The position numbers and the translations under genes are program-made. Source: an archaeon (lineage in GTDB: Archaea > Thermoproteota > Nitrososphaeria > Nitrososphaerales > CADDZS01). From it: DNA of 64,000 nt. Shown here in pieces: positions 18,256 through 21,235 of the stretch (the first letter of the stretch is position 1; each line of letters starts with the position of its first letter). Under the pieces are notes generated by a model, which saw nothing but the letters and a program-made list of their open reading frames with translations, had not been told where the DNA came from and did not search any database. Location: contig JARCRS010000075.1 in assembly GCA_029850555.1 (NCBI GenBank), forward strand, positions 1-64,000, read 5' to 3'.

Positions 18256-18687
18256 TCATTCAATCCAAGCCGAAGATCCGTCTGAATAGATTTCTTGCTT
18301 GAAAAGCGCTGGCTCTTTTTTGTACCTCTCAACGGTTTCCCGAAGAGCTTTGAAACCGATGTCTCTACGTGGAGCAGACAAGGCAACCAGTACAACTGGC
18401 TCTCCGGGCTTGAACCGGCCGAGCGCGTGTACAATAAGAATATCATTCAAGTGGAACTTTCTCTTTGTTTCTGCGCATATATTTCGAAGAACTTTGTTTG
18501 CGTGTGTTTCGTAGGACTCCATCACAAGGGTCTTGATCTTTTTAGATCCGTCTGAGCTCTCTTTTCTTGCGACTCCCAAAAAACTGGTGACACAGCCTGT
18601 ATCTTCCGATAGCTTTGAAAGAAAGTCACAATAGATTCGACCGAAATCAATACGCTCCTTTGAATAAACGCCTGTTTCGATTCGCAT
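18256..18687 (-). CDS. moaE: Molybdopterin synthase catalytic subunit MoaE
   Basis: Works with MoaD to insert the dithiolene sulfurs into precursor Z, the second step of molybdenum-cofactor synthesis. Seen: the central ALGRFKPGE motif, APRRDIGFKA, and the C-terminal RYKKEPALFKQE segment containing the catalytic lysines (K123/K124 and K130). Length 143 is typical. It lies 15 bases downstream of moaB in a moaC-moaB-moaE operon, while moaD diverges from that operon. The product feeds three molybdenum hydroxylases encoded in this window. Confidence 0.93.
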   Translation of the reverse strand: MRIETGVYSKERIDFGRIYCDFLSKLSEDTGCVTSFLGVARKESSDGSKKIKTLVMESYETHANKVLRNICAETKRKFHLNDILIVHALGRFKPGEPVVLVALSAPRRDIGFKALRETVERYKKEPALFKQEIYSDGSSAWIE

Positions 18688-18702: not shown

Positions 18703-19233
18703 TCATGGCTTACTATTGGCAATAAACACGGCGTGAGGCAATTCCTTCAGTGCAAGGCTCAATCCAAGTTTGACGCCGTCGGGAGAGCCCGGCAGACAAA
18801 AGATTGGTTTGTTCCCTATCACGCCGGCAAGAGCTCTCGTCATAATAGAGGCAGAACCTATAGAGTCATAACTTAATCGTCGAAAACCTTCGCCGAACCC
18901 TTGGAGTTCTTTTTCAAGAAGAAGTGAAATCGCCTCAATTGTAACGTCTCGTGGAGCTATTCCTGTTCCACCCATTAGAATTATTGCATCAGCATTTCTT
19001 TCAAAAAGTGCTTTCAGGACGCGCAACCTGATCATTTGTTTATCATCATCGACTAGCTCGAGGAAGGCATCATGCCCCGCTCTCTTGCACATGGAGAGGG
19101 CCAGTTCACCAGAATCATCCTTGATTGAGTGGTCTCTGAATCTACTGGAACTAATTGTTACAAGTGCAATTGTCAGTTTTTTCGGTGACTCATGCTTGTG
19201 CTTCTCCGGAGCGCGTGATTTATGGCCGGGCAA
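18703..19233 (-). CDS. moaB: Molybdenum cofactor protein MoaB/MogA family
   Basis: Adenylates molybdopterin before metal insertion, or plays an equivalent role in archaea. The MoCF-binding domain shows TISSSRF near the N terminus, the GGTGIAPRDVTIEA signature at about 93-106, and LPGSPDGVKLG near the end. A 20-residue basic tail precedes the domain. Length 176 matches MoaB. It starts four bases after the moaC stop. Confidence 0.92.
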   Translation of the reverse strand: MPGHKSRAPEKHKHESPKKLTIALVTISSSRFRDHSIKDDSGELALSMCKRAGHDAFLELVDDDKQMIRLRVLKALFERNADAIILMGGTGIAPRDVTIEAISLLLEKELQGFGEGFRRLSYDSIGSASIMTRALAGVIGNKPIFCLPGSPDGVKLGLSLALKELPHAVFIANSKP

Positions 19234-19236
19234 ATT

Positions 19237-19707
19237 TCAATACGACCCCTCTTTCTTCTTTTTCACTACATGAATATTCGTAATTTTCGTCTTAGGATAC
19301 TGGCCCTTTGAATCCTTTTCGTACTTCTTAACGACATCCCAAACATTGAGCAGTGCATTTGTCACCGAATTCAGGGCTTCCATTTCCACGCCAGTTTTGC
19401 TTGATGCAACAACTGTTGCTCGCGCGGTGATGGAATTCTTAGCTTTGAACAACTCGACCGAGATACTTTCAATTGGAATAGGGTGACACATGACTAAGAC
19501 TCGAGGTGTCGACTTGACCGCTTGAATCGCACCAATAGTAGCTATCTGAATAGGATCTCCCTTCTCGATTTCGCCCTTTTCGATGAGTACAAGCGTAGAC
19601 CGCTTGAGTTCGATCTTCCCTTCGGCAATAGCTTCACGTCGAACTACGGGCTTGTTTGATATGTCAATCATCTTCGGCAGAGTAGTCGACGAAATAGATG
19701 TTTTCAA
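19237..19707 (-). CDS. moaC: Cyclic pyranopterin monophosphate synthase MoaC
   Basis: Second enzyme of molybdopterin synthesis, converting the MoaA product to cPMP. Seen: MIDISNKP near residue 13, the MCHPIPI motif with the conserved His at about 99, the GVEMEAL motif with the catalytic Glu at about 131, and a C-terminal basic tail. Length 156 is usual. It is the first gene of the moaCBE operon, and its start lies about 140 bases from the divergent moaD. Confidence 0.94.
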   Translation of the reverse strand: MKTSISSTTLPKMIDISNKPVVRREAIAEGKIELKRSTLVLIEKGEIEKGDPIQIATIGAIQAVKSTPRVLVMCHPIPIESISVELFKAKNSITARATVVASSKTGVEMEALNSVTNALLNVWDVVKKYEKDSKGQYPKTKITNIHVVKKKKEGSY

Positions 19708-19845: not shown

Positions 19846-20142
19846 TTGGCCGACATTGGTATCCGCTATTTCGGTGCTCTTCGTGAGATAATGGGTAAGA
19901 GATCTGAGAATGTCATGATTTCAGATTCTGCAAGCCTGATGGATCTCTTAGATAAATTGGGAGATAAACATGGGACAAAATTTCGAAACTTTGTCTTTGG
20001 GTCTGGCGGAAAGATTCGCGAAGGGATAGCGTTTGCCGTCAATGGAGACACGATTGCGAGCTCGAGACTTCGTGATGTACCCTGCAAGAAAGTCAAAGAA
20101 TTTGTTATTTTGCCTCCGATAAGTGGAGGATGTTGGATTTGA
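19846..20142 (+). CDS. moaD: MoaD/ubiquitin-like sulfur carrier with C-terminal extension after GG
   Basis: Beta-grasp sulfur carrier that forms a C-terminal thiocarboxylate and donates sulfur in MoaE, and in some archaea also modifies proteins. Seen: GIRYFGALREIMG at the N terminus and PPISGG near the C terminus, both typical of MoaD. Unusually the protein does not stop at the di-glycine: GGA GGA is followed by TGT TGG ATT TGA, adding Cys-Trp-Ile. The tail would have to be removed before activation, as in ubiquitin precursors. I prefer the TTG at 19846, which gives 98 residues and a normal MoaD N terminus; a GTG at 19786 would add 20 residues. The gene diverges from moaC. Confidence 0.85.
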   Translation: MADIGIRYFGALREIMGKRSENVMISDSASLMDLLDKLGDKHGTKFRNFVFGSGGKIREGIAFAVNGDTIASSRLRDVPCKKVKEFVILPPISGGCWI

Positions 20143-20197: not shown

Positions 20198-20536
20198 ATG
20201 GCTCAACCCATTGGAATAAACTTGAACTCTATCTTGATAGTTTCAGCGGATGTAATCGCGGGAAAGGAAGAAGAATTCAACAAATGGTATGATGAACATC
20301 ACATACCGGTGTATTCGGGTAAAATGCCTCTCCTCAAATCTGTAAAAAGATTTTACTCAAAGAAATCTACACCACAATTCATTGCAATTTACGAATATGC
20401 TTCTTTTAGCGATCTAAAAAATTCAATGGCAAGTAAAGAGTCAGAACTAGCTGGGAAAGACGCGGATGAGCAGGTCGGAATTTTAGTAAAGTCGTTTGCG
20501 TACAACATGTACTCGCAAATATACCCGATACAATAG
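20198..20536 (+). CDS. Small dimeric alpha-beta barrel (EthD-like) protein
   Basis: A 112-residue protein with the EEEFNKWYDEHHIP motif of EthD and related ferredoxin-like dimeric barrel proteins. A KSVKRFYS strand, an IAIYEYASF strand and a helical NSMASKE region follow. Members often act on or bind aromatic or polyketide-like compounds, but many have no known role. It lies 56 bases after moaD on the same strand. No catalytic residue can be named with confidence. Confidence 0.7.
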   Translation: MAQPIGINLNSILIVSADVIAGKEEEFNKWYDEHHIPVYSGKMPLLKSVKRFYSKKSTPQFIAIYEYASFSDLKNSMASKESELAGKDADEQVGILVKSFAYNMYSQIYPIQ

Positions 20537-20650: not shown

Positions 20651-21235
20651 ATGTCAGCACAAAACCAGCTAGATCAACTCGATTCGCTGAAAGAGTCCCT
20701 CGCGAAAACCATTGAAGCGCTTCGTTCTTCGAACCCAGCATTCGAGCATGCATACGAGACATACATTCAACAATACGGCAGAGACACAGTTTCGATCATT
20801 GATCCAATCAACCTCGTAGATACGGTCGATCCAGTGATCTTAGTTTTCGGAAGGAATACAGCAATCAGATACTTTGACTCAAAGAAGTTAATCTCTGGTT
20901 CTTTCGGCTCTTTAAATCTAAAGCAGGGAACAGAGTACATTATTGGTCGTAGACAACCACAGGATTCAAAATTAATGATTTGGAGTCCTAAGGGCGACGA
21001 GGTGGAACTAGAAGGTTACAATCCAGAGGTCGGAATAATACCCTCACGCATCCATGCCACAATAGTCTTTCGAGACGATCGGCATATCTTTTTCGCAGAC
21101 CTTGTTAGTTCCTCTGGTACCGTCTTAATCGGCGAATCAAAACGCCAGGCCGCTTTTGTTCGTGTCTATGATCCCGGCTCAGCAGAATTTCCAAGGATTA
21201 AGCTAACACGCGTGTACACATCGAGAAAAGACTAG
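20651..21235 (+). CDS. FHA-domain protein
   Basis: Phosphothreonine-binding forkhead-associated domain preceded by a helical N-terminal part. The domain covers about residues 85-185: YIIGRRQ carries the first-strand Gly-Arg, IPSRIHATIVF carries the Ser-Arg-x-His core, and DLVSSSGTVL corresponds to the Asn-Gly-Thr turn with Ser-Gly-Thr here. Binding of a phosphorylated partner is expected, perhaps in DNA repair or signalling. No kinase gene is adjacent. A TTAAATAATA element at about 20610 is a plausible TATA box for this single gene. Confidence 0.75.
   Translation: MSAQNQLDQLDSLKESLAKTIEALRSSNPAFEHAYETYIQQYGRDTVSIIDPINLVDTVDPVILVFGRNTAIRYFDSKKLISGSFGSLNLKQGTEYIIGRRQPQDSKLMIWSPKGDEVELEGYNPEVGIIPSRIHATIVFRDDRHIFFADLVSSSGTVLIGESKRQAAFVRVYDPGSAEFPRIKLTRVYTSRKD

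Follow-up and report, generated by a model that had tools for sequence, protein, structure and literature searches.

A MoaD precursor with a Cys-Trp-Ile tail in a soil archaeon and its predicted maturation by a JAMM protease

In the bacterial sulfur carriers QbsE (thioquinolobactin synthesis) and HcyS (Wolinella), one or two residues past the Gly-Gly end are removed by a JAMM protease, QbsD and HcyD, respectively. Haloferax SAMP1 is encoded to end at Gly-Gly. In mycobacteria, one E1-rhodanese protein (MoeZR) activates both MoaD and CysO (PMC3227635). The Haloferax volcanii protease HvJAMM1 cuts SAMP1-MoaE links and fusions to give an active molybdopterin (MPT) synthase (PMC4443979). In Caldiarchaeum, CsJAMM cleaves the CsSAMP precursors, including a MoaD, whereas CsRpn11 does not (PMC6043591). 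Unprocessed Caldiarchaeum pro-ubiquitin is refractory to its E1, which is blocked by the nine-residue tail (CGEPIRRAA) until the JAMM-fold protease Rpn11 cuts (PMC5654768).

The protein described here is a MoaD encoded in the DNA of a soil archaeon, in a stretch of 64,000 nucleotides (to be referred to as the window), with Cys-Trp-Ile after its Gly-Gly. The likeness to the Caldiarchaeum SAMP/MoaD and CsJAMM system is that of an archaeal MoaD/SAMP precursor cut by a SAMP-type JAMM, although the cleavage was shown in vitro in Caldiarchaeum (PMC6043591) and we infer it for the window MoaD. The two systems also differ in that the JAMM gene of the window's genome has cysM and a ThiS-E1-rhodanese fusion as its neighbours, and in that the tails differ in every close relative. 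With Haloferax SAMP1 and HvJAMM1, the window protein shares the nearest fold, a probable role as the MoaD of molybdopterin synthase, and a free Gly-Gly that would be restored by a JAMM. However, the substrates shown for HvJAMM1 are SAMP1-MoaE links and fusions, while the window MoaD carries a tail. Caldiarchaeum pro-ubiquitin is similar in having a short tail past the Gly-Gly, with Cys as its first residue as in Cys-Trp-Ile, but it is a true ubiquitin that works with an E2 and a RING E3, and its Rpn11 leaves the MoaD precursor uncut (PMC6043591). The mycobacterial CysO/Mec+/CysM proteins and MoeZR represent the same set of cysM, JAMM and E1-rhodanese as in the archaeal genome, except that in the latter the E1 and the carrier form one fused protein. 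The QbsE/QbsD and HcyS/HcyD pairs are bacterial and belong to other pathways.

The MoaD precursor and its gene neighbourhood

The moaD gene (19846..20142, plus strand) encodes a MoaD/SAMP1-like sulfur carrier precursor of 98 residues, MADIGIRYFGALREIMGKR...EFVILPPISGGCWI, followed by a TGA stop. The reading frame is open from 19786, and translation probably starts at the TTG codon at 19846, as the proteins of the relatives begin with MAEV or MARV there. The codons at the 3' end are ATA AGT GGA GGA TGT TGG ATT TGA (I-S-G-G-C-W-I-stop), and the C terminus of the protein reads ILPPISGG-CWI. The Gly94-Gly95 codons (GGA GGA, 20125..20130, plus strand) encode a pair that is invariant in three alignments, and the predicted cleavage point is immediately 3' of them. 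The tail (TGT TGG ATT, 20131..20139, plus strand) is predicted to be removed, which would leave residues 1-95 as the mature part.

A match to PF02597 (ThiS/MoaD, Pfam) covers residues 6-95 of the 98, with an E value of 1.4e-10. The NCBIfam moaD_arch and SAMP1 models cover residues 4-95 and 6-95, respectively, both under their cut-offs; the scores for TIGR01687 and TIGR01682 are 47.3 bits (cut-off 49.5) and 37.3 bits (cut-off 66.15). The matches to the family models end at Gly95 and leave over the last three residues. Judged by the end-to-end fit of the model, the window MoaD is divergent rather than different. The predicted structure (mean pLDDT 85) is closest to that of Haloferax SAMP1 (3po0), with a TM score of 0.80, and MPT-synthase small subunits rank after SAMP1. 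Sequence relatives among solved structures also place the protein as MoaD/SAMP1-type. The tail is unstructured and of low confidence in the predicted structure (pLDDT below 50 for residues 94-98). The protein therefore has the ThiS/MoaD β-grasp domain with Gly-Gly at positions 94-95, and the partner moaE and other moa genes are present. As three residues lie beyond the Gly-Gly before the TGA, it is classed as a MoaD precursor. The reading of the DNA together with the PF02597 and fold matches bears out the preliminary description of this locus, where a MoaD with Cys-Trp-Ile between the di-glycine and the TGA had been noted.

Upstream of moaD, and divergently oriented on the minus strand, are moaC (19237..19707, NCBIfam PRK12343 above cut-off), a gene for a moaB/mogA-type protein (18703..19233, TIGR00177 above cut-off), and moaE (18256..18687, PF02391 with an E value of 4.7e-26), the product of which pairs with mature MoaD in molybdopterin synthase. 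The set moaC-moaB-moaE beside moaD is complete, with its order kept, in six of the eight named relatives and partial in a seventh, at a contig end. A moaA-type gene (moaA domain) is located elsewhere in the same genome. Based on the adjoining moaC, moaB and moaE, their synteny in the relatives, and moaA in the genome, the window protein most likely serves molybdopterin synthase.

Downstream of moaD, the window encodes a 112-residue protein (20198-20536, plus strand) that has no match in Pfam or NCBIfam and is kept just 3' of moaD in four of the eight named relatives, with 62-70% identity. The next protein (20651-21235, plus strand; 194 residues) has no Pfam match, appears FHA-like by eye (GRRQP...SRIHATI...SSGT), and is next in order in two relatives, with 46-58% identity.

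Variable tails, sulfur carriers and the JAMM of the genome

The MoaD orthologues were compared in nine genomes of the family, including that of the window; most of the relatives carry the label Nitrososphaerales MAG, and the named loci (L095-L102, the same genes as handles G001-G008) were each counted once. The cores are 50-63% identical to the window MoaD, with an invariant Gly-Gly. The C termini, which the preliminary description had singled out for comparison, are tailed in six of the nine genomes and end exactly at the Gly-Gly in three. Every tail is different (CWI in the window, SNYPKS, F, RMKH, LSF, and the 16-residue CSGTKFSFLLNMLLLS), and they have nothing in common. With six of nine genomes tailed, each differently, the Cys-Trp-Ile tail is, on the strength of these alignments, beyond chance or a single read error. 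The Bathyarchaeota-type MoaDs that were found (about three dozen) all stop exactly at the Gly-Gly, which indicates that selection normally maintains the exact end. Three Asgard MoaD-like proteins (L125, L138 and L139, from Jordarchaeia and Sigynarchaeota) all have nine-residue tails after the Gly-Gly (SLHTLHLFF, TVSRPYPSF and NIHTLHLIF). These are equal in length and partly alike, in contrast to the tails of the window's family, which vary.

In four of the six family moaD tails, the first codon is a single step away from a stop codon, compared to 30% expected (binomial p 0.07), and with one paralogue added the number is five of seven (p 0.03). These figures are suggestive only of an origin of the tails by stop loss. 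The preliminary description had pointed to a single TGA-to-TGT change at this position; the two codons are indeed one step apart and stop loss may underlie the tail, but a sequencing error as its sole cause is unlikely.

The window's genome is a fragmented draft, 88% complete, in which a second protease may be missing. It encodes four ThiS/MoaD-type proteins, the window MoaD and those in C88, C31 and C102. The C31 protein ends HGG-STL and the C102 protein exactly AGG, while in C88 the ThiS domain is fused in front of an E1-rhodanese and so runs past its Gly-Gly. Two of the three other ubiquitin-fold carriers thus extend past the Gly-Gly, and together with the window MoaD three of the four would need processing to expose it.

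The genome search detected one PF14464 JAMM and one PF00899 E1, adjacent to each other. The JAMM gene in C88 (L392:4163-4672, minus strand; E value 2.6e-25) contains the motif HSHPNAPAKPSEFD, with an intact metal motif HSHP...S..D (canonical HxHx10D), and the PDB relatives of its product include JAMM1. It is part of a cluster of cysM, JAMM and the ThiS-E1-rhodanese fusion (L392:2686-5650), in which the cysteine-synthase-type (cysM-type) gene is upstream of the JAMM and E1 genes. The E1 is unfused in the relatives G003, G004 and G006; the last of these encodes its ThiS part separately, and this part carries a tail of its own, EVPSKALRRYFCKRA. In G004, a member of the window's family with no JAMM detected, all three carriers end exactly at the Gly-Gly. 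Another member, G005, has the RMKH tail and no JAMM was found in this genome, which is 70% complete and also has no good E1 match.

Association of tails with JAMM across two phyla

The prediction set for a wider test was that residues after the Gly-Gly require a JAMM. The Thermoproteota set consisted of stand-alone carriers in genomes at least 95% complete, with a tail defined as up to 60 residues and a JAMM as a PF14464 match. Tails are present in 20 of 64 carriers with a JAMM in the genome versus 0 of 29 with none detected (Fisher p 2.5e-4), and per genome in 18 of 50 versus 0 of 21 (p 7e-4), with the caveat that the Fisher tests count related genomes as independent and thereby overstate independence. 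Tails occur in 20 of 47 carriers from genomes with a strong JAMM match and in 0 of 17 from those with a weak one; the cut for strong matches (E < 1e-11) was set after the data were seen, and the any-match figures are the reliable ones. Counted by family, tails occur in 6 of the 12 families that have a strong JAMM and in 0 of the 7 that lack one (p 0.04).

The Actinomycetota served as an independent set. Here, tails are found in 22 of 54 carriers with a JAMM versus 2 of 17 without (p 0.039), and both of the latter come from one genome, G482. The two sets pooled give a CMH p of 1.7e-4. No PF14464 JAMM was found in G482, nor in the 10 kb around each tailed carrier. The two carriers (L330 and L338) end GG-CT and GG-CGAAR. 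Two archaea without a detectable JAMM (G138 and G162) have MoaD-MoaE-like fusions (L253 and L242), which were tallied separately. Halobacteriota were dropped as a second test set, with a JAMM in 135 of 137 genomes, and an E1-ThiS fusion was not clearer than JAMM presence as a predictor of tails, there being too few genomes. The median tail length is 3 codons, whereas in untailed genes a median of 10 codons separates the end of the gene from the following in-frame stop (p 5e-5). The tails are therefore shorter than if they resulted from stop loss alone, and their length seems to be under some limit.

Proposed maturation and alternative explanations

We consider it likely that a JAMM cuts the MoaD precursor after the Gly-Gly, that adenylation and thiocarboxylation then make it ready for molybdopterin synthase, and that selection on the exact stop is relaxed. 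The Cys-Trp-Ile tail would keep the C-terminal glycine from being used until the bond between Gly95 and Cys96 is cut by the single JAMM detected in the genome. The E1 domain of the ThiS-E1-rhodanese protein would then adenylate the exposed Gly-Gly end, its rhodanese domain would provide the sulfur for the MoaD thiocarboxylate, and MoaE would use this thiocarboxylate to produce molybdopterin. The JAMM would be required regardless of the window MoaD, given that the same genome encodes a ThiS domain fused before the E1 and also a third tailed carrier. With the protease needed anyway, selection for a stop right after the Gly-Gly would be relaxed, and tails could come, change and go.

The precursor processing suggested in the preliminary description gains good indirect support from the JAMM of the genome, the variable tails, the co-occurrence of tails and JAMM, and the cleavage of MoaD precursors by CsJAMM (PMC6043591). 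Of the JAMM/Rpn11-type protease that it had proposed to look for, one JAMM with an intact motif was found, and by analogy the acting protease is expected to be of the SAMP type. Rpn11 was set aside, given the detection of a single JAMM and the failure of CsRpn11 to cut MoaD precursors (PMC6043591).

A possible but rather unlikely explanation is that the tail marks a ubiquitin-like modifier, which the JAMM both matures and removes, as with the SAMPs or Caldiarchaeum ubiquitin; this would be compatible with a role in molybdopterin synthesis. The nearest structures are those of SAMP1, a proven modifier and also the Haloferax MoaD (PMC4443979), and a JAMM is present in the genome. However, the sole E1 found is a rhodanese fusion, of the sulfur-transfer type, in a cysteine-synthase cluster, and several kinds of sulfur carrier are tailed, so that the tail is no signal for conjugation. 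The use in protein conjugation that was raised earlier for this protein has no more support than any SAMP-like protein would give.

Removal of the tail by another protease, a carboxypeptidase or slow general proteolysis, which would make the JAMM unnecessary, is improbable. The two tailed carriers of G482 and the tail in the incomplete G005 genome, both with no JAMM detected, are consistent with it, but the association of tails with JAMM holds in two phyla and the activity of CsJAMM on MoaD precursors is published (PMC6043591). We give still less weight to a regulatory precursor, in which the tail is retained so that the JAMM switches on molybdopterin synthesis. Maturation is a conceivable control point and the tails are shorter than expected from stop loss alone, but their sequence, length and presence are unconserved between close relatives, which fits neutrality better. 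An assembly or sequencing error, the true end being GGA GGA TGA with TGA misread as TGT, is the least credible of all: it takes one substitution in a fragmented draft, and three relatives do stop exactly at the Gly-Gly, but the orthologues in five other family genomes bear other tails of other lengths and two more carriers of the window's genome extend past the Gly-Gly, so that independent errors at one codon would be needed in implausibly many genomes.

Maturation of a MoaD precursor by a JAMM is a known kind of step, demonstrated earlier in Caldiarchaeum, and the less familiar aspect is the turnover of tails among orthologues. As a warning to annotators, tailed carrier genes should not be shortened to the Gly-Gly. 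It is conceivable, and we put this forward tentatively, that in the window's family, and more broadly wherever a SAMP-type JAMM is present, a general maturation step by the JAMM frees all ubiquitin-fold sulfur carriers from the need for an exact Gly-Gly end. Stops would then be lost and regained randomly within a short length, and the protease would be essential for both molybdenum cofactor and cysteine synthesis. Such neutral evolution of pro-proteins may be a possible route to the ubiquitin precursor. As a genomic rule, residues past the Gly-Gly usually mean a JAMM, and this rule could be of use in dating when pro-ubiquitin processing arose. The JAMM-processed MoaD precursor is probably no peculiarity of Caldiarchaeum, but a frequent and fast-changing trait.
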